A DNA stretch of 64,000 nt from contig NZ_JAIUZY010000003.1 in the NCBI RefSeq assembly GCF_020171625.1, positions 1-64,000 on the forward strand. Reading direction: 5' to 3'. Under the pieces are notes generated by a model. It searched no databases and was not told the origin of the DNA. It saw only the letters and a program-made list of their open reading frames with translations. The DNA is from Salipiger bermudensis. GTDB lineage: Bacteria; Pseudomonadota; Alphaproteobacteria; Rhodobacterales; Rhodobacteraceae. Shown here in pieces: positions 1,098 to 23,508 of this stretch. The position numbers and the translations under genes were made by a program. Positions within the stretch are counted from its first letter, which is position 1; each line of letters starts with the position of its first letter.

Positions 1098-3032
1098 ATG
1101 GCCCGCCACGGACGACAGCTTGCGATGCTCTGCGCGGCGCTGTTCCTCGCCGCTGCGCCGGCCCTTGCCGACACCCGCGTGGCGCTGGTGATCGGCAATT
1201 CCGACTACAAGGCGGTGGGCCGGCTCGCGAACCCCACGAACGATGCGCTCGACATCTCGGTGGCGCTCGAGGGGCTGGGCTTCGAGGTGCAGACCGGGCG
1301 CAACCTCAGCCGCGCGGAGATGCGCGAGACGACGCGCAGCTTCGCGGCCGCCGCGGCGCGCGCCGATGTGGTCCTGTTCTACTACGCCGGCCACGCCTTT
1401 CAGGTCGACGGGCGCAACTACCTGCTGCCCACGGATGCCGCCCTCGGCACCGTCTCGGACATTCCCGAGGAGACGGTGGCAATCGAGGAGGTGCTGCGCG
1501 CGATGGAGGCCTCCCCGGGGGTGAAGCTGATCTTCCTCGACGCCTGCCGCGACAACCCGTTCGGGCAGGCGCTCGGGGATGCACCGGGGGTCGAAAACGG
1601 GCTGGCGCGGGTGGGCACGGACGCGAATTTCCTCTTCGCCTATGCCACCCAGCCCGACAACGTGGCCTATGACGGCACCGGGCGGAACAGCTTCTTCACC
1701 GAGGCGATGCTGCACCATCTCTACACCCCCGGGCAGGACATCTCGGAGCTGATGATCTCGGTGCGGCGCGATGTGCTGGCGGCGACCGGCGGGCGGCAGA
1801 TCCCGTGGGAGAACTCGTCGCTGACGCGCCAGTTCATGTTCGACGACAGTCCGGTGACGGTGTCCGAGGAGGCGCTGTTCTATCAGGTTGCCACGGGGGA
1901 GAGGGACCCCGACCTCTTGCGGCTCTATCTCGAGACCTACCCGCAGGGCGCCCATGCCGAGGAGGCGCTGGCCTTTCTCGATACCGGGCTCAGCACCCGC
2001 GCGCTGGGGCTGGCCGATGCGTCCGGCGAACAGGAAGAGAAGTTCTGGGCGCTGGCCCGGCGCAGCCGCCTGCGTCCGCTTCTCGAGGTCTATCTCGAGC
2101 GCTACCCCGAGGGCGCCCATCACGCCGAGGCGCAGCGGCTGATCGCGTTGCTGCCGCCGCTCGAGAGCGCCTCGGACGGCGCCCTCTGCGAGCGCCTCGC
2201 CACCCACCCGCGCGACGCCACGGCGGGCAATCCCGGCGTCCCCTTCGCCCGGCTGCAACAGAACGCGGCGGCGGCGATCCGGGCCTGCTCGGCGGCGGCG
2301 ATCCAGTCGCCCGAGCTGAGCCATTACGTGGCGCTGCTGGCCCGTGCGACCGCCGCGTCGGGCGATATGACGCGTGCGATCGACCTTTATCTCAGCGCCG
2401 CCGAGCGCGGCGACCTGCGTGCCATGGTGAGCCTTGCGCAGCTCAAGGAGAACGGCACCGGAATGGCGCAGGACATCCCCGGCGCCATGCGGCTTTACGA
2501 ACGCGCCGCCGAGGGCGGCAGCCAGGACGCGATGATCAACCTCGCGATCACGCTGTTCGAAGGCAAGCTGCTGACACAGGACAGCGACCGCGCCATCGCG
2601 CTTTTGAAACGCGCCGCGGCAGAGGGCGCGCCCAAGGCCGCCTTCAACCTCGGGGTGCTGGCGCAGGACGGCGCGCTTGGCGATCCGGCCGAGGCGCTCG
2701 ACTACTTCCGCCGCGCCGCCCGCGACGGCGAGGCACAGGGCTATTTCGCCGCCGCCATTCTGCTCGACGAGGGGCGCGGCGTGGCACGTGACCCGAACGC
2801 CGCCGCCGATGCTCTGCTGCGCGGCGTGGCCGAGGATGACGGCACGGTGCTGACCCAGCTCACCCGCAACAGCGCCGGCTGGACGCGCGAGACCCTCTCG
2901 GCGGTGCAGGCGCGGCTGTCGCAGGCAGGCTTTTACGCCAGCCCCATCGACGGACTGCCGGGCCCGAACTTCACCGCCGCACTGACCAAGTGGCGCAATG
3001 GCGGCTTCGATGCTGCTCTGCTGGCAAACTGA
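1098..3032 (+). CDS. Caspase-like (peptidase C14) protein with SEL1 repeats
   Basis: 644 residues. Residues 1-24 form a signal peptide ending ALA. Residues ~27-250 look like a caspase p20 domain: RVALVIGNSDY at the start, the catalytic His in YYAGHAFQ (about residue 98) and the catalytic Cys in FLDACRDNPF (about residue 150). Residues ~430-590 hold SEL1/TPR-like helical repeats (AxxLYxRAAExG pattern). The C-terminus (LSQAGFYASPIDGLPGPNF) resembles a peptidoglycan-binding-domain-1 helix bundle. With both catalytic residues present, an Arg/Lys-specific exported orthocaspase is plausible. ATG lies 3 bases after the stop of the surface-protein gene, so the pair forms an operon. The true substrate is unknown; processing of the upstream surface protein is possible. 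Confidence 0.75.
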   Translation: MARHGRQLAMLCAALFLAAAPALADTRVALVIGNSDYKAVGRLANPTNDALDISVALEGLGFEVQTGRNLSRAEMRETTRSFAAAAARADVVLFYYAGHAFQVDGRNYLLPTDAALGTVSDIPEETVAIEEVLRAMEASPGVKLIFLDACRDNPFGQALGDAPGVENGLARVGTDANFLFAYATQPDNVAYDGTGRNSFFTEAMLHHLYTPGQDISELMISVRRDVLAATGGRQIPWENSSLTRQFMFDDSPVTVSEEALFYQVATGERDPDLLRLYLETYPQGAHAEEALAFLDTGLSTRALGLADASGEQEEKFWALARRSRLRPLLEVYLERYPEGAHHAEAQRLIALLPPLESASDGALCERLATHPRDATAGNPGVPFARLQQNAAAAIRACSAAAIQSPELSHYVALLARATAASGDMTRAIDLYLSAAERGDLRAMVSLAQLKENGTGMAQDIPGAMRLYERAAEGGSQDAMINLAITLFEGKLLTQDSDRAIALLKRAAAEGAPKAAFNLGVLAQDGALGDPAEALDYFRRAARDGEAQGYFAAAILLDEGRGVARDPNAAADALLRGVAEDDGTVLTQLTRNSAGWTRETLSAVQARLSQAGFYASPIDGLPGPNFTAALTKWRNGGFDAALLAN

Positions 3033-15796: not shown

Positions 15797-16480
15797 ATGC
15801 GTATTCTGGCCCTGTCCCTTTGCCTGCTCCTCACCGCCTGCGGCAGACCCCTGACCGAGAACGAGGTCTCGTTTCTGACCGCGATGCAGGGGCCGGGATT
15901 CGATGGCGACCGCATCCGCTTTCACGACGGGCTCTGGGCCGGAAAGATCACCTACCAGCGCCCGATCCGCCCGCGCCTGACCTGCATGGAGCGCATCTGG
16001 CCGCCCTCGCGCGGGGAAACCGTGACCGTCTCGCCCGGCGCCATGACGCTGTTCCGGCACGTGTTCTACCGCGAGGATCTCTACCGCGACGATTTCGTGC
16101 CGGACTACCCGGAGCGCATCGACCTTGCCGATGCGATGCTGCTGGCGCATGAGGCCACCCATGTCTGGCAGTGGGAGAACCGCGCCCGAACCGGCTATTC
16201 GCCGCTCAAGGCGGCGCGCGAGCACCGGGTGTCGGAAGATCCCTATCTCTTCGATCCCGAAAACAGCGCCCGGTTCCTCGATCACGGCTACGAGCAGCAG
16301 GGCGCCATCGTCGAGGAATATGTCTGCTGCCATGTGCTCGACCCCGAAGCGCCGCGCACCGCGCGGCTGCGCGAGATGATCTCGGCCGAGATGCCGATCG
16401 CGGGGCTCGAGGCGGTGCTGGACGATCCCGAGGTGCTGGTGCCGTGGCGCGGCATCCAGCCGGAGGGCATCTGCCGCTGA
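15797..16480 (+). CDS. Predicted lipoprotein with a metallopeptidase-like HExxH motif
   Basis: 227 residues. The N-terminus MRILALSLCLLLTACG carries a lipobox (LTAC). Around residue 115 the sequence LLAHEATHVWQWENRARTGY contains HEATH, an HExxH zinc-binding motif preceded by hydrophobic residues, as in gluzincin-type peptidases. A candidate third ligand is the Glu in IVEEYVCC near residue 175, about 60 residues after the motif. Six or more cysteines may form disulfides. Similar HEATHVWQ-containing proteins in Rhodobacteraceae are uncharacterised. It could be a periplasmic or outer-membrane-anchored peptidase acting on the cell envelope; this is inference. Confidence 0.65.
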   Translation: MRILALSLCLLLTACGRPLTENEVSFLTAMQGPGFDGDRIRFHDGLWAGKITYQRPIRPRLTCMERIWPPSRGETVTVSPGAMTLFRHVFYREDLYRDDFVPDYPERIDLADAMLLAHEATHVWQWENRARTGYSPLKAAREHRVSEDPYLFDPENSARFLDHGYEQQGAIVEEYVCCHVLDPEAPRTARLREMISAEMPIAGLEAVLDDPEVLVPWRGIQPEGICR

Positions 16481-16651: not shown

Positions 16652-18145
16652 TCAAACCACCGCCAGATGGCTGCCGCCCCGGCCCGCCTCCATCGGCCAG
16701 GGGGCCAGCCGGCCATCGATGCGCAAGGTGGCGTGGCCGCCGGCGCCGCGCGGGTGCACCGCGAGGTCGACCAGCTGGCCATCGAAATTGCTGAAGCCAA
16801 GCGACAGGCTCTGGCCCTGTGCCTCGAGCCGGCGGCGCAGCACGTGGCAGGCGATGGCCTCGCCGAGCCGCAGATCGCGATAGTTCTCCGCCTGGAAGAA
16901 GGTTCCGCTCACCGACCGCGCCAGCGCCACGTCCGCGGCCAGCCGATCGGCCTCGGCGCCGATATCGATGCCGGCGCCCTGACTGCCCACCATGCGAAGG
17001 CGGGCATGGCGGCGGCTGTCGAACACCGCTTTCAGCAGCGTCGAAAGCGCGCCCGCCACAACCGCCTTGGCCACGTGATCGGCACGGTGCGAGGGCCGGT
17101 CCTCGTGCAGCGACGGCAGGTGCAGGTCGGGTCCTTCACCACGGGGGCCGCGCTGCGCGCGGTTCATCCGGTCGACCCAGTGCAGCAGGTGCGGCGTCTT
17201 CCCGGCGAGTTCCGCGGCACAGGCGGCGAGCTCGCTTGTCGAGTCGCCGAGCTGATCCTCCCGGGCGAGCAGCGCGGTGATCCGCGCGGCGGTCACCGCC
17301 GGTCGGCTGAGCCGGTCGGCCCGGCCCTGCATCCGCATCGCCGCCGTGTAGGCGCGCTCGGCACACTCGGCCATCATCGACAGCAGGCTCTGGGCCGACA
17401 CCGCGCCCGGCAGTGCGGCCTCAAGCCCGGGGTCGAGCGGCGCCCGGCGCCCCAGAAGACGCAGCGCCGCGTTGAAGTAGATGCGGCCCGGATGGCTGGC
17501 GTTCAGGCGCGCCACCAGAGCGCGCGGGGTGGTGATCGCCTCCTGCCCCTGCCCGGCCTGTCCGCGCTGCACCAGCGAGGCACCGGAGCAGCGCTCTATC
17601 CAGCCGAGCCACTGCGACATCGGCGCATCGGCCTCGGGCGGGGTGCTCGGCTCGGTCTCGGCGCAACTGGGGCGATCGGTGACATGCAGGGTCGAGAGGC
17701 GGATCTGCGGGCCGCGATGCGCGACCACGCCACGAAACAGGCTGCGCAGGGTCAGCTGACCATCGCCGTTCAGCCGCAGGCCACGGCGCTGGTCAGCATC
17801 CCCGCAGACGGTCCGGGAGCAGAGAACCGTCTCGAAAGGCCCGGGAAAGGGAAGGGCCTGATCGTTGAACCAGCTCAGCGAGCGCAGCTCGCAGAGCAGT
17901 TCGTGAAGGGTGAAATGGGTGCTCGCGTCGATCCAGATCTCGCAATGCGGGTCCTGCAGCAGCTCGAACGGCAGGTCCCGGACCAGCGCCAGAGCGTAAA
18001 GCTCAGCCAGTTCGGCGGCAAGCTCGGCCGGCCCCATGCGGGGGGCCGCGGGAAGCTGGAGATGAAATCCGGCTGGCGTGTCGGGGCGGCGGCCACCATC
18101 GATGACCCGCAGTCCGTTCTGGTGTGTCTCAAGCCCGAAGCTCAT
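16652..18145 (-). CDS. Degenerate vanadium-dependent haloperoxidase homologue, probably catalytically inactive
   Basis: 497 residues from the ATG at 18145, preceded by AGGGGAAATCACC. Several segments correspond, in order, to bacterial vanadium bromoperoxidases as I recall the family: an N-terminal AELYALALVRDLPFELL block, RALVARLNASHPGRIYFNAA then LRLLGRRAPLDPGL, RLSRP (family RRLRPEEF), PSHRADHVAKAVVAGAL (family AYGAGHATVAGA), and DVALARSVSGTFFQAENYRD then LRLGEAIA (family GRNxAGVHWRSDY then LRLGEAIA). The catalytic histidine of AGVH is replaced by Thr-Phe and the GH of the PSGH-like box is rearranged, so vanadate binding is unlikely. It is divergent from the protease gene at 18421 and belongs to the SARP-regulated locus. 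A scaffold, substrate-binding or regulatory role is inferred. Confidence 0.65.
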   Translation of the reverse strand: MSFGLETHQNGLRVIDGGRRPDTPAGFHLQLPAAPRMGPAELAAELAELYALALVRDLPFELLQDPHCEIWIDASTHFTLHELLCELRSLSWFNDQALPFPGPFETVLCSRTVCGDADQRRGLRLNGDGQLTLRSLFRGVVAHRGPQIRLSTLHVTDRPSCAETEPSTPPEADAPMSQWLGWIERCSGASLVQRGQAGQGQEAITTPRALVARLNASHPGRIYFNAALRLLGRRAPLDPGLEAALPGAVSAQSLLSMMAECAERAYTAAMRMQGRADRLSRPAVTAARITALLAREDQLGDSTSELAACAAELAGKTPHLLHWVDRMNRAQRGPRGEGPDLHLPSLHEDRPSHRADHVAKAVVAGALSTLLKAVFDSRRHARLRMVGSQGAGIDIGAEADRLAADVALARSVSGTFFQAENYRDLRLGEAIACHVLRRRLEAQGQSLSLGFSNFDGQLVDLAVHPRGAGGHATLRIDGRLAPWPMEAGRGGSHLAVV

Positions 18146-18222
18146 GGTGATTTCCCCTGTCGCTGGCGGCCTCTGGGCGGGCTGCCTTGGATGACGTGAC
18201 GTAGGGACAATCTGCTCAGCGT

Positions 18223-18322
18223 GCGTGAATGCAGCGTGAGTGCAGCGCGATTTCCGCGTGAGCGCTGCGCGAATTCGCTCATTTTTACAAACCCGCGTGC
18301 CGGTCCTGCGCGTGAATATTGC
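18223..18322 (+). promoter_or_regulatory. Four GCGTGA direct repeats, probable SARP operator upstream of the protease gene
   Basis: Four 13-bp units match GCGTGA-N5-GC: GCGTGAATGCAGC (18223), GCGTGAGTGCAGC (18234), GCGTGAGCGCTGC (18256) and GCGTGAATATTGC (18310). Start-to-start distances are 11, 22 and 54 bp, close to whole DNA turns. The last unit ends 98 bases before the protease ATG. Streptomyces SARP regulators bind heptamer direct repeats with 11- or 22-bp spacing. The same motif recurs at 21815-21838. Confidence 0.65.
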
Positions 18323-18420
18323 GCAATTCCCGCCCACCCTCCGGACCGCTCGCTTGACCGGGCAGCGGTGCTCGGCTTTGCTTGCCCCATTGTTGCAAAG
18401 CGTTTTGCGAGGACCCGGTC

Positions 18421-20517
18421 ATGACACTGTGCTGGCACGCCGCCGAACCCGCCGCGTTTCAAGATCCCTACGTGGATTTCTCCTGGATGCTGCGGCAGCG
18501 GCGCCAGCCGCCGGTGGGGTCCGATGTCTACCAGCCGATCTTCGTGCGGCTCGTCGGCGCCGACGATCCCGTGTCCGCGCGCAAGCAGCGAAAGCGGCTC
18601 AGGAGGCTGGTCGAGACCCCGGCCGATCCGCTGCTGATGGAGCCTTTCGAGCTGTCGGTGCTGCGCCGGCGCTGCCACCGGCGCGATCCCGATGCCGGCC
18701 TGCCAGACGAATACCCAGTCTATCGCGCCCTCGGCACGCCCGACGACGCCTTCGCCGACCTGTTCGAAGTGCTCGACGACGGCACGCCGGTGGCGCTCGA
18801 CCCGTCGAGCGTGGATTTCGACTCCGCCGAGGACTTGCAGCCGGACTCCGAGTCCTTGGGCAAGGGGCGGCCGATCGTGGCGGTGATCGACGACGGCATC
18901 GGATTTCTCAACGCGCGCTTCTGCAAGGCACGGCGCAGGGGGCGCGGCAGCGTCCTCAGGACCCGGTTCGAGGCGATCTGGCTGCAGGCGCTCGAACGTG
19001 CCGGTCCGGGGGACCGCAGCGCCTGTCTCGGAGAGATACTCGAACGCCGGCAGATCAACGCCCTGCTCCGCCGCGAGGGCTTCAACGAGACCGGCGAGTA
19101 CACCGCGCTGAACGCGCGGCTGGCGCGGGCCGACGCCCGGCGTTCCACCGATTTCGGCACCAGCCACGGCACCCACGTGCTCGACCTCGCCGCGGGGAGT
19201 GAGCCCGACGACAGCGACGATCCGGCGCGGGGCTGGCCGCTGCTGGGGGTGCAACTGCCACCGCAGGCCATCGCCGACACGTCTGGCACCAAGTTCGAGA
19301 GCTACCTCGTCGACGCGGTGCGCTGGGTGCTGCGCCGGGCCGAGGCGATGGACCCGCACGCACCGGTGATCATCAACCTCTCGCTGGGGATGCTGGCCGG
19401 CCCCAAGGACGGCACCCGCTTCGCCGAGTATCAGGTCGCCCGCGAGGCGCGGTTCTGGGAACAGATCAAGGGCCAGCCGGTGCGCGTGGTCTGGTCCTTC
19501 GGCAACGACTACCGCAAGCGGCTGGTGGCCGGCCTCTCCTTCCCCGCCGCCGAGGCGCGCCGCGACACCGCCCAGAGCATCGAGTGGCGTGTGCAGCCCG
19601 GCGATCTGACCGAGAGCTATGTCGAGATCCGCGCCGCGCCCGGCCAGCCGCTCGAGGCGCTCGAGATCGGCGTGACCACGCCGGCGGGGCTTGCCTCCGG
19701 AGTCTCGGCGCTGAAGCCCGGCGAGATCCGCAACCTGACGCAGGGCGATCAGGCGGTCGCGCGGATCTACCACGTACCCGAGCACCGGCTCGACCCCGAG
19801 ACCTTGCAGCGCAACTTCTACCTTCTGGCGCTCGCGCCCACCGCGTCTCTCGACCTCGAGCCGCTGGTGCCCTCGGGCGCCTGGCAGCTCGCGTTTCGCT
19901 ACGACGGATGCGCGGCACTGGACCTCGAGCTGCAGGTGCAGCGCGACGACAGCCTCGTGGGATACCGCGCCGGCGCGCGGCAGAGCTATTTCGAAAGCGC
20001 CGAGGGCTATGGCTGGGATCAGGAGTTCTTTGACTACACCCAGCTCGGGCCGGACTGCGCGATCAAATATGCCGGATCGCACAGCGCGCTCGCCACGGCG
20101 CTCACGCGGCAGGTGTTCCACGTCGGAGCCGTGCGCGATGACGCGCAGGACGACCGCCTGCCGCCCTCGGATTACTGCGGAGAAGGGGCGGCTTGGTCGG
20201 TGCCCGGCCCCACCGTCTCGGCCATCGCTGATCGCAGTTTTCTGCGCGGAGGCGTTCAGGGCTGCGGTACCCTCAGCGGCAGCACCCGGTTTCTCAATGG
20301 CACCAGCGCCGCCGCGGGCCGGCTGAGTCGCGCGCTTGCGCTTTCGTCGAAGGGACTGGTGGCCGATGCCACGACACCGCATCTGGCCGATTTCGACACG
20401 AGGCGGGTGAGCCTGTGCCCCGTCCCCGAGGCCGCGCGCGCGCGGCTGGGCAGCCATGTGGTGAAAATTGCCGAAGCCGAGTGCACTCGGCTGGGCAACC
20501 ATGTGGTGACAACCTGA
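18421..20517 (+). CDS. Subtilisin-family (S8) serine protease
   Basis: 698 residues; ATG 18421 is preceded by GAGGACCCGGTC. No signal peptide, so it is probably cytoplasmic or exported by another route. The catalytic triad is visible: Asp in IVAVIDDGIGF (about 157), His in TSHGTHVLDLAAG (about 249) and Ser in FLNGTSAAAGRLSRA (about 628); the oxyanion Asn is in VWSFGNDYRKR (about 362). The spacing between His and Ser is unusually long because of an inserted beta-rich domain around residues 380-560. The extreme C-terminus repeats RLGSHVV / RLGNHVV. It lies between the two haloperoxidase-fold genes and has a SARP-type repeat promoter. A role in maturing a partner protein of the locus is possible. 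Confidence 0.85.
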   Translation: MTLCWHAAEPAAFQDPYVDFSWMLRQRRQPPVGSDVYQPIFVRLVGADDPVSARKQRKRLRRLVETPADPLLMEPFELSVLRRRCHRRDPDAGLPDEYPVYRALGTPDDAFADLFEVLDDGTPVALDPSSVDFDSAEDLQPDSESLGKGRPIVAVIDDGIGFLNARFCKARRRGRGSVLRTRFEAIWLQALERAGPGDRSACLGEILERRQINALLRREGFNETGEYTALNARLARADARRSTDFGTSHGTHVLDLAAGSEPDDSDDPARGWPLLGVQLPPQAIADTSGTKFESYLVDAVRWVLRRAEAMDPHAPVIINLSLGMLAGPKDGTRFAEYQVAREARFWEQIKGQPVRVVWSFGNDYRKRLVAGLSFPAAEARRDTAQSIEWRVQPGDLTESYVEIRAAPGQPLEALEIGVTTPAGLASGVSALKPGEIRNLTQGDQAVARIYHVPEHRLDPETLQRNFYLLALAPTASLDLEPLVPSGAWQLAFRYDGCAALDLELQVQRDDSLVGYRAGARQSYFESAEGYGWDQEFFDYTQLGPDCAIKYAGSHSALATALTRQVFHVGAVRDDAQDDRLPPSDYCGEGAAWSVPGPTVSAIADRSFLRGGVQGCGTLSGSTRFLNGTSAAAGRLSRALALSSKGLVADATTPHLADFDTRRVSLCPVPEAARARLGSHVVKIAEAECTRLGNHVVTT
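20443..20509 (+). repeat. 22-bp direct repeat encoding the C-terminal RLGxHVV pair of the protease
   Basis: 20443-20464 and 20488-20509 are identical over 22 bases except one (G/A), with a 45-bp period. They encode RLGSHVV and RLGNHVV, the last residues of the S8 protease. Confidence 0.8.
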
Positions 20518-20558
20518 CGCCATATCCTGACGCCACTCCAGCGGGGCCTGGGCGGACC

Positions 20559-20582
20559 GGCCGGGACCAACAGGTCCCGGCC
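20559..20582. terminator. Hairpin between convergent protease and PAP2 genes
   Basis: Perfect 10-bp stem GGCCGGGACC / GGTCCCGGCC with loop AACA. It sits in the 115-base gap between two convergent genes and may terminate transcription in both directions; no long T-run follows. Confidence 0.55.
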
Positions 20583-20632
20583 ACTCGCAACAAAAGAGGC
20601 CGCTCTCGCGCCCCCCACTGGTTAAACTGGGG

Positions 20633-21709
20633 TCATCCTTCCCTGAGCGCCTTGCACCACATGGTGCGAAGCCAGTCCGGCACCAACGACGGGTCGATGG
20701 CGATTTTTGTCTCGGATATCGAACCCGCCGGGTCGGCGATCTGTTCCGACATCAGGGAAAGATTGAAATCGTTCGCGTAATCACGCCCATCGAAGCTGCG
20801 CGCCGTGGTCTCCTCGCGCTCATCGAGCAGATTGACCAGCGCCTCGGCCATGCTCACGCCAAGCACGGCGCCGGCCATGCTGTCGGTGGGGTAATGCACC
20901 CCCGCGACGGTGCGGTTGATCGCGATGCGCTCGGCCTGCCGGAAGAACGGCGTCTGCTTGGCCAGCAGCGCGGTCGGATCGAGCGGCTCGGAATCATCAT
21001 AGCACAGGCGGCTGAGCAGGGTCGCGGCGGCAAAGCTCTCGGTGGCGTGGCCGCTGGGCCATGCGCCATGCCCGGGGGTCTGGATGATCGGCTGCACCTG
21101 ATAGGCCAGCGTGATCGGCCGCGGCACGTCGAAGCCAAGCTTCACCGGCATCTCGACATGAGTGCAAAGCCGGAACACCGCCTGCATCAGCGCCAGTTGC
21201 CACTTGGTGGCGCCCGACGACATGTAGCTGACGCTGGCAAAGAACGACTGGATGTTGCTCGTCTCGACGCGGATCTCGGCCAGCCGGTCGTAGCGCAGAT
21301 CGGCCGCCGCGCGCAGGAAGCCCAGCTGCTTTTCCTCGAGCACCTCCATGCTCGGGCGTTGGAGGGTCACCAGCGGCGTGCCCTGAAACCCGACGCTGCC
21401 GCTCGCGTTGGAGCTCTCGCTTTGCTCGAAGCTCACGTCGTAGAGGCTCTGGATCGCCTGATCCATCACCGCCCGGCGCGGCGCGGTCCCGAGGCTCTTG
21501 ACCGCCGCCCAGCTCGAGCGCCCCTCAACCCGCGAGGCGCGGCTCGGCAGGCCGTTCCAATACCCGACCGTGCCATCGCGTGCGCTCCCCAGCGCGACGC
21601 TCAGGGCCGGTGAGCCACCGCCGCCTTCATGGCCCTCGTGCCCCTCGTGGCCTTCATGTCCCTCGTGGCCCTCATGTCCTTCGTGGCCTTCATGACCGTA
21701 AATCGGCAT
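20633..21709 (-). CDS. PAP2 / vanadium-haloperoxidase-fold enzyme with an N-terminal His-Glu-Gly repeat
   Basis: 358 residues from the ATG at 21709, preceded by GGAGGCTGGGG. Residues ~6-29 are eight HEG triplets followed by Gly. The C-terminal half carries the complete vanadate/phosphate site of the PAP2-haloperoxidase superfamily: KLGFDVPRP (K-x6-RP, about residue 192), PSGH (about 221) and NRTVAGVHYPTD (R-x5-H-x3-D, about 272). The enzyme could be a soluble phosphatase or a vanadium haloperoxidase; no signal peptide or membrane helices support a soluble protein. It is divergent from the SARP-like regulator gene and two GCGTGA repeats precede it. The degenerate homologue at 16652-18145 lacks these catalytic residues. 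Confidence 0.75.
   Translation of the reverse strand: MPIYGHEGHEGHEGHEGHEGHEGHEGHEGGGGSPALSVALGSARDGTVGYWNGLPSRASRVEGRSSWAAVKSLGTAPRRAVMDQAIQSLYDVSFEQSESSNASGSVGFQGTPLVTLQRPSMEVLEEKQLGFLRAAADLRYDRLAEIRVETSNIQSFFASVSYMSSGATKWQLALMQAVFRLCTHVEMPVKLGFDVPRPITLAYQVQPIIQTPGHGAWPSGHATESFAAATLLSRLCYDDSEPLDPTALLAKQTPFFRQAERIAINRTVAGVHYPTDSMAGAVLGVSMAEALVNLLDEREETTARSFDGRDYANDFNLSLMSEQIADPAGSISETKIAIDPSLVPDWLRTMWCKALREG
21623..21694 (-). repeat. Eight 9-bp units encoding (His-Glu-Gly)8
   Basis: On the minus strand eight consecutive units of the form CAY/CAC-GAR-GGN encode HEG, varying only at third positions apart from the first base of the Gly codon block. The repeat lies at the N-terminus of the PAP2-like protein. 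It could bind metal ions or be prone to copy-number change. Confidence 0.9.
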
Positions 21710-21814
21710 CCCCAGCCTCCCCCGAGACAATAAACTCCGAAATCGATTAACAATGATATGTCCGACATCAGACAGAAACTCCGGCGCTTCGTCAAAGCCT
21801 TGTGCCGGACAGGC

Positions 21815-21838
21815 GGGCGATTCACGCAGTATTCACGC
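21815..21838 (-). promoter_or_regulatory. Two GCGTGAAT direct repeats 11 bp apart, probable SARP operator
   Basis: On the minus strand GCGTGAATACTGC (from 21838) is followed 11 bp later by GCGTGAATCGCCC (from 21827). The first matches the GCGTGA-N5-GC consensus upstream of the protease exactly. The pair points toward the PAP2-like gene, whose ATG is about 105 bases away, nearly the same distance as at the protease. It also lies 69 bases upstream of the SARP gene and could mediate autoregulation. Confidence 0.65.
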
Positions 21839-21906
21839 CCGTTGCCGGGTCTGTGACGCGGTGGTAGTTTACCTAAAGTTTATTATTTCGATGTTTGGAC
21901 CCCCTT

Positions 21907-23508
21907 ATGCGCGACACCGCTCCCCCGATTCGGATCTCGGTGCTCGGCCCGCTTCGCGTAGAAGCCGGGGACGCCACTTGCCTCACGCCGAAGGGCGCGA
22001 AGAACCAGGCGCTTCTGGCGCTGCTTGCCCTCTCGCCCGAGATGTCGCGCCCGCGCCGCTGGCTCGAGGACAAGCTCTGGAGCCAGTTCGGACCCGAGCA
22101 GGCCAGCGCAAACCTGCGGCAGGCGCTGAGCAAGCTGCGCAGCGCGCTTGGGGACCACGCCGATATCCTGCGCGCCGACCGTGCCAGCGTCTCGCTCGAT
22201 CCGCTCGCGCTCTCGGTCGATCTGCGCGATGACGGGCTGCGCTTCGATCAGCGCACAGAGCTGCTCGAGGGGCTCGACGCCCGCGACCCCGAGTTCGAGG
22301 AATGGCTGCGGATGGAGCGCGCCGACCTGCAGGCCCGGCTGTCGCAGGCCGCGCCGAAAGAGGCCAAGGGCGTTCTGATCCACTGCCGTTCGGCCGCAGC
22401 GCCCGAGGACGGCGCCGAGATCATGGCCGACATCCTCGCCAACCAGATCGGCGAGAACATCGCCGAGCAGATCCGCGCGTGGCGACAGTCGTCCGATCCC
22501 GGCCATCCCGCCGAGCTTCCGGTGAGCGACATCTCCCTCACCTGCGACATCCTCAAGACGACCGACGGCCACACGCTGTTCGTCAAGGGGCTGCACGTGC
22601 CGAGCGGGCGTATCCTGTATTCCAAGATGCAATCGGTCGATCACCTCGAAGCCATCCTGCGCAGCGACGAGATCGTCTCGAAGCTGGTCTTCGAGGCAGC
22701 CGACTGCATCATCGGCAAGCTGCCACAGGTGCTCGACACCAACCGCCCCGAGAGCCGCGCCACGGCGCTGTCGCGGCTCAGCATGTACCGCATGTTCAGC
22801 TTCGAGCGCGACGCCCTGCGCGAGGCCTACTCGCTGCTTAAGCAGGCGCATGAGCTTGACAGCAACGGCATTTACCTTGCGTGGAGCAGCATGGTGCGGA
22901 TGATCCAGCTCCTCGAGCTGCTCGAGGACGACCGAGAGGCCCTGCGCGAGGAAGCCATCGCCCTGAACTACCGCGCGATGGAGGCCTCGGAAGACAACGC
23001 GCTTGTGCACGCGCTGATCTCCAAGGTGCGCGGCACGGCGCAGCGCGATGCAGCGGGCGCCTTCGAGCTGGCCGACACCGCGGTCAACCGCAACCCGGCC
23101 TCGGCCTTTGCGTGGAAATCTCTGGCGGAGGCCAACATGCTGATGGGCGACGTCACCTCGGCTTTCTCCGCCTCGGCCCGCGCCCGCGCCATCGCGCGCA
23201 GCTCACCGTTCAAGCAATGGTGGGATATGGGGCACTGCATCATCGCCATTGCCTGCAACCGCCCGCACGAAGCCATCGAGGCCGGCGAAGCGGCGGCGCG
23301 CGCGGCGCCTCTGTCGCGCCCGGCGCACCGGCACCTTCTGGCGCTCTACGCGCTCGACGGACAGCTCGACAAGGCGCAGGCGACGGCAGTGAAGCTTGGC
23401 AAGATCGAGCCGGGCTTCACCATCGACCAGATTATAAATGACGAGAATTACCCGGTGCGCACCCTGCGCAACAAGGGTCTGCTCGAGCCGATCCGCGCCC
23501 TGCTCTGA
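21907..23508 (+). CDS. SARP-like transcriptional regulator (winged helix plus TPR)
   Basis: 533 residues from the ATG at 21907; a TTG at 21895 is a less likely start. Residues ~8-100 form an OmpR-type winged helix: ISVLGPLRVEAGD, a basic helix ending TPKGAKNQALLALLAL, and RPRRWLEDKLWSQF then SANLRQALSKLRSAL, the layout of SARP/BTAD activators. Residues ~120-260 form a mixed domain (DISLTCDILKTTDGHTLFVK) reminiscent of the sensor part of CadC/adenylate-cyclase-like TPR regulators. Residues ~270-530 are TPR-like helices. It is divergent from the PAP2-like gene. The direct repeats in both nearby promoter regions make it the probable activator of the locus. The activating signal is unknown. Confidence 0.8.
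   Translation: MRDTAPPIRISVLGPLRVEAGDATCLTPKGAKNQALLALLALSPEMSRPRRWLEDKLWSQFGPEQASANLRQALSKLRSALGDHADILRADRASVSLDPLALSVDLRDDGLRFDQRTELLEGLDARDPEFEEWLRMERADLQARLSQAAPKEAKGVLIHCRSAAAPEDGAEIMADILANQIGENIAEQIRAWRQSSDPGHPAELPVSDISLTCDILKTTDGHTLFVKGLHVPSGRILYSKMQSVDHLEAILRSDEIVSKLVFEAADCIIGKLPQVLDTNRPESRATALSRLSMYRMFSFERDALREAYSLLKQAHELDSNGIYLAWSSMVRMIQLLELLEDDREALREEAIALNYRAMEASEDNALVHALISKVRGTAQRDAAGAFELADTAVNRNPASAFAWKSLAEANMLMGDVTSAFSASARARAIARSSPFKQWWDMGHCIIAIACNRPHEAIEAGEAAARAAPLSRPAHRHLLALYALDGQLDKAQATAVKLGKIEPGFTIDQIINDENYPVRTLRNKGLLEPIRALL

Follow-up and report, generated by a model that had tools for sequence, protein, structure and literature searches.

The locus and its exact peptide array

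The window analysed here, the first 64,000 nucleotides of contig NZ_JAIUZY010000003.1 in the 4.74 Mb, 39-contig genome of Salipiger bermudensis, holds a four-gene locus in which a PAP2-fold protein begins with a tandem array of eight exact Gly-His-Glu units. Relatives of this protein carry exact arrays of other short peptides, and its gene is inherited together with those for a protease and a TPR-containing regulator. The locus is a conserved module with a feature that the literature found does not explain, and no description of the module was found in literature searches judged by titles and the openings of abstracts.

All four genes, which an earlier note made from the sequence had proposed to act together, were confirmed within 16652-23508, and the start of the vanadium-haloperoxidase-like (VHPO-like) gene was corrected to an ATG inside an open frame reaching 18337. 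The features are as follows.

16652-18145, minus strand: VHPO-like accessory member, a probable pseudoenzyme (497 amino acids; aligned to VHPO-like proteins keeping the motifs)
18223-18333, plus strand: direct repeats of the GCGTGAAT type, at steps of 11, 22 and 54, in the divergent VHPO-like/S8 promoter
18223-18241, plus strand: putative perfect two-copy operator in the VHPO-like/S8 promoter, from a pattern search
18421-20517, plus strand: S8 subtilase with a Csp-like overall fold (698 amino acids; Pfam PF00082, PDB profile matches and AlphaFold2 model)
20633-21709, minus strand: PAP2-fold enzyme with intact active-site motifs (358 amino acids; N-terminus MPIY(GHE)8)
21626-21697, minus strand: tandem array of eight exact Gly-His-Glu units, PAP2 residues 5-28, in seven distinct codon spellings
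21820-21838, minus strand: putative perfect two-copy operator in the PAP2/regulator promoter, from a pattern search
21907-23508, plus strand: SARP-type regulator with an N-terminal winged helix and a C-terminal TPR region (533 amino acids; profile matches)

The PAP2-fold enzyme is intact, as the earlier note had held, with a Pfam match (PF01569) at an E-value of 2.4e-13 and 50.4 bits against a cut-off of 27.2, and with the motifs K-x6-RP, PSGH and R-x5-H, which are invariant or nearly so in 41 sequences. Across the alignment rows inspected the Lys, Arg and His positions are kept, and PSGH reads PSAH, PAGH or PSNH in 7 of 55. These motifs are common to phosphatases and vanadium haloperoxidases; acid phosphatases are the best fold and profile matches, and haloperoxidases are weaker. 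No signal peptide is seen by eye, and the AlphaFold2 model has a pLDDT of 89, falling below 50 over residues 1-28 at the array end.

Arrays of this kind are present across the family. Defining an array as at least three exact copies of a unit, and reducing 178 PAP2 frames (loci L120-L342) to 156 at 90% identity over the last 120 residues, we found that 153 of the 156 members carry a peptide of 2-6 residues repeated exactly in tandem, with 92 distinct units such as GHE, GNQ, NSQ, AGR and ENW. Three-residue units make up 119 of these arrays, the remainder having units of four (19), two (10), five (4) or six (1) residues. Overall the units are rich in G, Q, S, A and N. Copy number is 4-19 per array in the 98 trios of PAP2, S8 and regulator genes counted, and the array usually lies within about 20 residues of the PAP2 start; a distant group whose units are NR, SR or NK has it around residues 50-90 of the open frame. 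The three members lacking an array are L191, whose protein is cut by a contig end, L267, with two HAK copies, and L327, a decayed copy in which the S8 frame is split. Control frames had no such arrays (S8 0/58, regulator 0/70, VHPO-like 0/24), and the 17 found in 613 gene calls from 41 sources belonged to 14 PAP2 proteins, two heavy-metal-binding (HMBD) proteins that had been fetched through a GHE-repeat match to the query, and one 67-residue frame that is probably spurious. Hence the His-Glu-Gly repeat reported by the earlier note is real, but it had been taken as a local feature, whereas the arrays switch by lineage throughout the family.

Two explanations of the repeat were rejected. A collagen-like domain, with Gly at every third residue, fits GHE and some other units, but not the family, which includes NSQ, ENW, HQS, AMT and four-residue units. 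GHE arrays elsewhere are not a partner system, as both matches examined (L158 and L159) are HMBD proteins; that at L158:7428-10082 has 32 tandem HEG units and is apparently unrelated to the module.

The units switch between lineages. In the first set of sequences, the unit was common to 6/6 pairs with a core identity of at least 90%, 2/3 at 80-90%, and 1/22 at 50-80%. Over 98 trios, the unit was common to 25/28 pairs at core distances below 0.3, 17/66 at 0.3-0.4, 10/250 at 0.4-0.5, 13/652 at 0.5-0.6 and 9/3154 at 0.6-0.7, and NSQ was found in two distant places. By eye, units neighbouring one another on the tree are chemically alike, following [G/N/S/A]-x-[Q/E/D] around the window, with cationic, GG-hydrophobic and four-residue groups elsewhere; a single GGAD within a GGAN array, and the hexapeptide AGQAGR beside AGR relatives, are possible intermediates. 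Units also differ in all ten genomes read with two or more trios, at a divergence where sharing is rare anyway.

As a rule, the copies in a protein tandem repeat diverge, or homogenisation of their DNA keeps them similar. With each unit represented by a single array (92 in all), codons at a spacing of one unit were identical in 629 of 2281 cases, against 853 expected (standard deviation 20, minimum 790) from 2000 shuffles of synonymous codons within arrays; the first set gave 300 of 1056 against 393 (standard deviation 13.5). As these codons coincide less than chance, while the residues are exact, the repeat is kept as protein, rather than as repetitive DNA, and the DNA either avoids repetition or loses it through instability. 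The longest runs of 128 arrays add up to 1156 perfect units, and nine one-residue departures followed by a perfect unit were found up to three units past either end of the run, exactness inside it holding by definition. The rarity of such departures, together with codon diversity, argues for selection on the residues.

The possibility that the array is a neutral spacer, made by slippage and devoid of function, draws on Phaeobacter inhibens M633, which has seven NSF units where the other ten Phaeobacter records read have six; the neighbouring unit is identical, as slippage leaves it, and therefore slippage occurs. Yet codons diversified beyond chance beneath exact residues already contradict a neutral origin, and the scarcity of departures and the near-universal occurrence of arrays make it extremely improbable. 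A phase-variable DNA repeat was likewise rejected, as the units stay in frame and their codons are diversified.

The conserved trio, its regulator and its accessory gene

The earlier note had named unlinked genes in related genomes as one observation that would speak against a functional unit. Instead, when named genomes were scanned with the PAP2 core, stripped of its array, at least 533 relatives were confirmed, and the best 80 loci, which were kept, carried the trio of regulator, PAP2 and subtilase in 77 cases, and the VHPO-like gene in 25. The genes are therefore linked and co-inherited, but the recurring set is that of regulator, PAP2 and protease, and the proposed four-gene unit stands as a trio with an occasional fourth member. 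Single-sequence searches (E-value 1e-5) of 244 genomes sampled from the order found matches to PAP2 in 92, S8 in 61, the regulator in 128 and the VHPO-like protein in 17. Hidden Markov models placed PAP2, S8 and regulator together in 29 of 40 fetched stretches; the other 11 include L130-L135, fetched for the VHPO-like protein, and L158 and L159, fetched for GHE repeats. Over 98 trios, the three proteins have matching patterns of pairwise distance (Mantel r 0.83-0.86, against a maximum of 0.144 in 200 permutations), an agreement that by itself fits both co-function and shared species history, but two or more diverged trios occur in at least ten genomes.

Carriers among the matches listed are mostly Rhodobacterales, as the records are named, with others in Bradyrhizobium, Rhizobium halophytocola, Microvirga, Oricola, metagenome-assembled genomes of Cohaesibacter and one of Rhodovibrionaceae; the closest named relatives of the PAP2 core among them are two S. 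bermudensis records, at 88% and 82% identity. A class-wide draw of 385 genomes gave ten matches at an E-value of 1e-30, of which four, counting the genome of the window itself, belong to its family. A relative is present in 35 plasmid records, of which 21 are from Phaeobacter. On one such plasmid, in P. inhibens M647 (L321), all three annotated trio genes are shorter than in other strains read. The trio at L165, in a record titled Enemella evansiae, an actinobacterium, resembles those of Mameliella, and the record is probably mislabelled or contaminated. A phage origin was rejected, as the viral matches, to one phage record and two viral contigs, were all weak, and PADLOC assigned no family to the four window proteins and one VHPO-like relative.

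The regulator's winged helix matches AfsR (8hvr_I, profile positions 6-81, E-value 0.0017), and its C-terminus matches many TPR proteins. Pfam Trans_reg_C falls below its cut-off (18.5 against 26.2 bits), and BTAD has no Pfam match at E-values up to 1, a TPR region standing in its place. Searching the genome with GCGTGARTNNNGCGTGART, a pattern built from this locus, gave a perfect match in each of the two intergenic regions and in no other place; beyond these there is a single site with one mismatch and four sites with two, and the reversed pattern, used as a control, yielded two sites with up to two mismatches. Upstream of PAP2 in relatives, an 11-bp lag (seven of eight bases) occurs in 28 of 75 regions, compared with 2-9 for other lags and 5.0 for single-base shuffles; this version superseded a stricter one requiring exact 8-mers, in which lag 11 appeared in only 2 of 68 regions. 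The repeats thus fit SARP-type binding and autoregulation, and the earlier note's description of a SARP-type winged helix with spaced direct-repeat operators, which remain putative, was borne out. In distant modules, a class-III cyclase-TPR protein takes the regulator's place, identified by Pfam in L157 and by eye in L305, L306 and L308.

The VHPO-like protein has no Pfam match, and, as the earlier note had noticed, it appears dead: both aligned active-site His residues are absent, in an alignment with proteins that keep GAGH and GRNxAGVH. Three scored residues are kept in 9 of the 33 relatives checked, four of these nine beside a trio (L126-L129) and five without one in the stretch (L131-L135). 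In most of the 24 degenerate relatives, among them L130 from outside the window's VHPO-like group, one of the two His survives. Ratios of non-synonymous to synonymous substitution against the same-genus relative L120 are 0.24 for the VHPO-like gene, 0.24 for S8, 0.19 for PAP2 and 0.10 for the regulator, and the best reading of the protein is a pseudoenzyme, accessory to the trio, that selection maintains. In genomes G157 and G158, the VHPO-like gene sits with the regulator, and without PAP2 and S8; G158, of the window's genus, has a broken regulator at the corresponding site (L121), with the VHPO-like gene kept, and a separate, diverged trio at L154.

These observations bear on the earlier proposal of a secondary-metabolite or halogenation locus, in which a SARP would drive tailoring enzymes with a maturation protease. 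Operator-like repeats of SARP type, VHPO-like relatives and haloperoxidases among the profile and fold matches are consistent with it; however, the haloperoxidase here is degenerate and accessory, acid phosphatases suit the PAP2 profile and model more closely than haloperoxidases do, and crude clustering of neighbouring genes, with no dedicated search run, found no recurring biosynthetic family. Neither halogenation nor secondary metabolism found support, and we regard such a locus as very unlikely.

On the left, the four genes are flanked by a lipoprotein-like gene (15797-16480) with a HEATH (HExxH) motif, whose cluster, c5, is represented in 7 of 41 sources and lies near the VHPO-like gene in the relatives shown, either through synteny or as a further accessory member. 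A MarR gene flanks them on the right, followed by what are presumably ectoine genes. Further away, the protein at 1125-3032 has a hydrophobic start and a VALVIGNSDYKA stretch, which by eye we take to be caspase-like.

What may read and cut the array

An exact protein repeat, encoded by DNA that avoids repetition and replaced wholesale between lineages, points to something that reads the exact unit. The linked protease is one candidate to act on it. The S8 protein matches PF00082 (E-value 3.4e-9, 36.9 bits against a cut-off of 21.8), and D157, H249, N362 and S629, which include the Asp/His/Ser triad, are invariant in 12 sequences. Its best PDB profile matches are the Csp germination protease 9sj6 (4.3e-19) and CspB (1.1e-14), and its AlphaFold2 model (pLDDT 79) is closest to CspB, then CspA and CspC, with a best E-value of 4.3e-18; the Foldseek TM-score to CspB, 0.64-0.69 by target length, compares whole folds, Csp proteases being marked by a prodomain and by a jelly-roll insertion within the subtilase domain. 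In distant modules the protease family changes. An eqolisin (Peptidase A4, PF01828, E-values 8.9e-21 to 1.4e-27) adjoins array-bearing PAP2 and a cyclase-like TPR gene in three bacterial loci, at the following positions.

L305:4002-5075, eqolisin frame
L306:5759-6850, eqolisin frame
L308:5083-6168, eqolisin frame

Another distant group has a papain-like frame (L341, E-value 9.4e-7; L337 and L339 fall below the Pfam cut-off), and S8 is found in nine of ten further distant frames. Among the hints that PAP2 is acted on by the protease, the strongest is that one protease family gives way to another while a protease is retained. In the decayed copy L327 the split S8 frame coincides with absence of the array.

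A second candidate is the enzyme's own core. In phylogenetic contrasts over 128 trios, with a null from sign flips, array charge correlates negatively with charge at PAP2-core columns R147, N152, Q176 and A76 (window numbering; r -0.54 to -0.36) and at columns flanking the array, most strongly at a column just after it (r -0.56); the sign-flip P for this signal is 0.0003-0.0008. The 128 include 43 later trios, planned as a held-out test and merged because few charged units were among them. The S8 and regulator columns gave no array-charge signal in these trios (P 0.06 and above), and no hydropathy column was significant (P 0.08 and above, the closest being S8 at 0.08-0.09); hence neither S8 nor the regulator was retained as a reader of the array by charge or hydropathy. 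We treat these correlations as a lead, suggestive of contact between the array and the core of its own protein.

We therefore tentatively propose, at a probability of roughly 0.4, a three-part regulated effector module, in which a protease gates a PAP2-fold effector whose array is read by the enzyme itself. The TPR regulator would bind the 11-bp-spaced repeats through its winged helix, switching on its own promoter and those of PAP2 and S8/VHPO-like. The PAP2-fold enzyme, probably cytoplasmic, would act on phosphorylated or oxidisable molecules. Its disordered array may bind, in many equivalent registers, a patch on the core of the same or a neighbouring subunit, holding the enzyme silent or assembled, until cleavage by the co-encoded protease, within the array or in the linker that follows, sets active enzyme free, in the manner of CspB and SleC. 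Candidate roles of such a module include stress, self-killing and competition.

Several points weigh against this proposal. Firstly, no cleavage or inhibition has been observed; of the earlier note's suggestion of a maturation protease, a likely role for the protease is supported. Secondly, no recognised protease was found in the scanned neighbour frames of array loci L307, L323, L324, L328, L331 and L342, the neighbour frame of L329 lying outside the scan. Thirdly, charge was one of three properties looked at, its signal is carried by few independent changes, and the patch was chosen from the same data; with residue volume, for which no null was run, a column of the regulator came to r -0.46. 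Fourthly, the rest of the core shifts somewhat alike, with a mean net charge of -2.3 beside anionic arrays and -5.9 beside cationic ones, and the distant set gave a mixed outcome, its cationic arrays not cleanly repeating the charge rule. Finally, a simple inhibitory tail leaves the frequent switching of units unexplained.

A rival explanation is that the array is the precursor of a peptide signal, cut by the protease into lineage-specific peptides that the regulator's TPR part senses as a private signal, as in RRNPP peptide signalling. Exact, multi-copy short peptides are encoded in one module with a protease and a TPR regulator, exactness is held at the protein level, and units differ both between lineages and between the trios of single genomes. 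On the other hand, the PAP2 protein has no secretion signal by eye, columns of the regulator follow neither the charge nor the hydropathy of the array, little information is held by units made up of just Gly and Ala (AGGGG, AGG), and the enzyme remains attached in the lineages read. We regard a signalling precursor as unlikely, though a real rival. Alternatively, identical units might stack the enzyme into filaments or condensates that the protease dissolves or primes; exactness would then serve in-register stacking, and switching would keep paralogues apart. We consider this idea equally unlikely, and likewise a real rival. Exactness within arrays combined with turnover between them, the unit composition, and the differing units of paralogues would suit self-assembly, but single-charge units (NR, SK, AGR) would repel each other, the array is disordered in the one model made, and array charge tracks the core.

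Beyond the protease-gated effector, a bolder reading, which we regard as doubtful, is that of a private peptide code. The PAP2-fold enzyme would display a lineage-specific exact peptide to which some partner surface is fitted, and a dedicated protease, whose family can be exchanged, would process it under control of the TPR regulator. Replaced whole between lineages, the code would give orthogonal self/non-self or signal channels, encoded in arrays whose DNA is prevented from becoming repetitive.

Comparison with known systems

The module spans several alphaproteobacterial groups, with proteases from three families and regulators of two or more kinds, and therefore has the look of a device in general use. 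It gives clear access to the concerted evolution of repeat arrays, and possibly to private signalling, or to enzymes gated by a protease, among bacteria of sea and soil. With the PAP2 superfamily of class A acid phosphatases, LpxE and vanadium haloperoxidases it shares fold and active-site motifs, but differs in its switching array, its apparent lack of a signal peptide, and its linked protease and regulator. The regulator resembles SARPs of the AfsR type in its winged helix and its 11-bp-spaced, operator-like direct repeats, but lacks a BTAD match in Pfam, ends in TPRs, and is exchanged for a cyclase-TPR protein in distant modules. Gasdermin-protease pairs are among the protease-activated bacterial effectors, and there too the effector is encoded beside a protease of variable family, whereas the effector here is an enzyme, and has no PADLOC match. 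The closest parallel to the proposed cleavage is in Clostridium germination, where the enzyme SleC is activated by a cleavage that requires CspB activity (PMC3567191); CspB is a subtilase whose overall fold, as judged by comparing models, is that of the S8 protein. Here, by contrast, the hosts are Alphaproteobacteria, the protease's neighbours are an array-bearing PAP2-fold enzyme and a SARP-type regulator, and the protease family itself varies in some distant loci.

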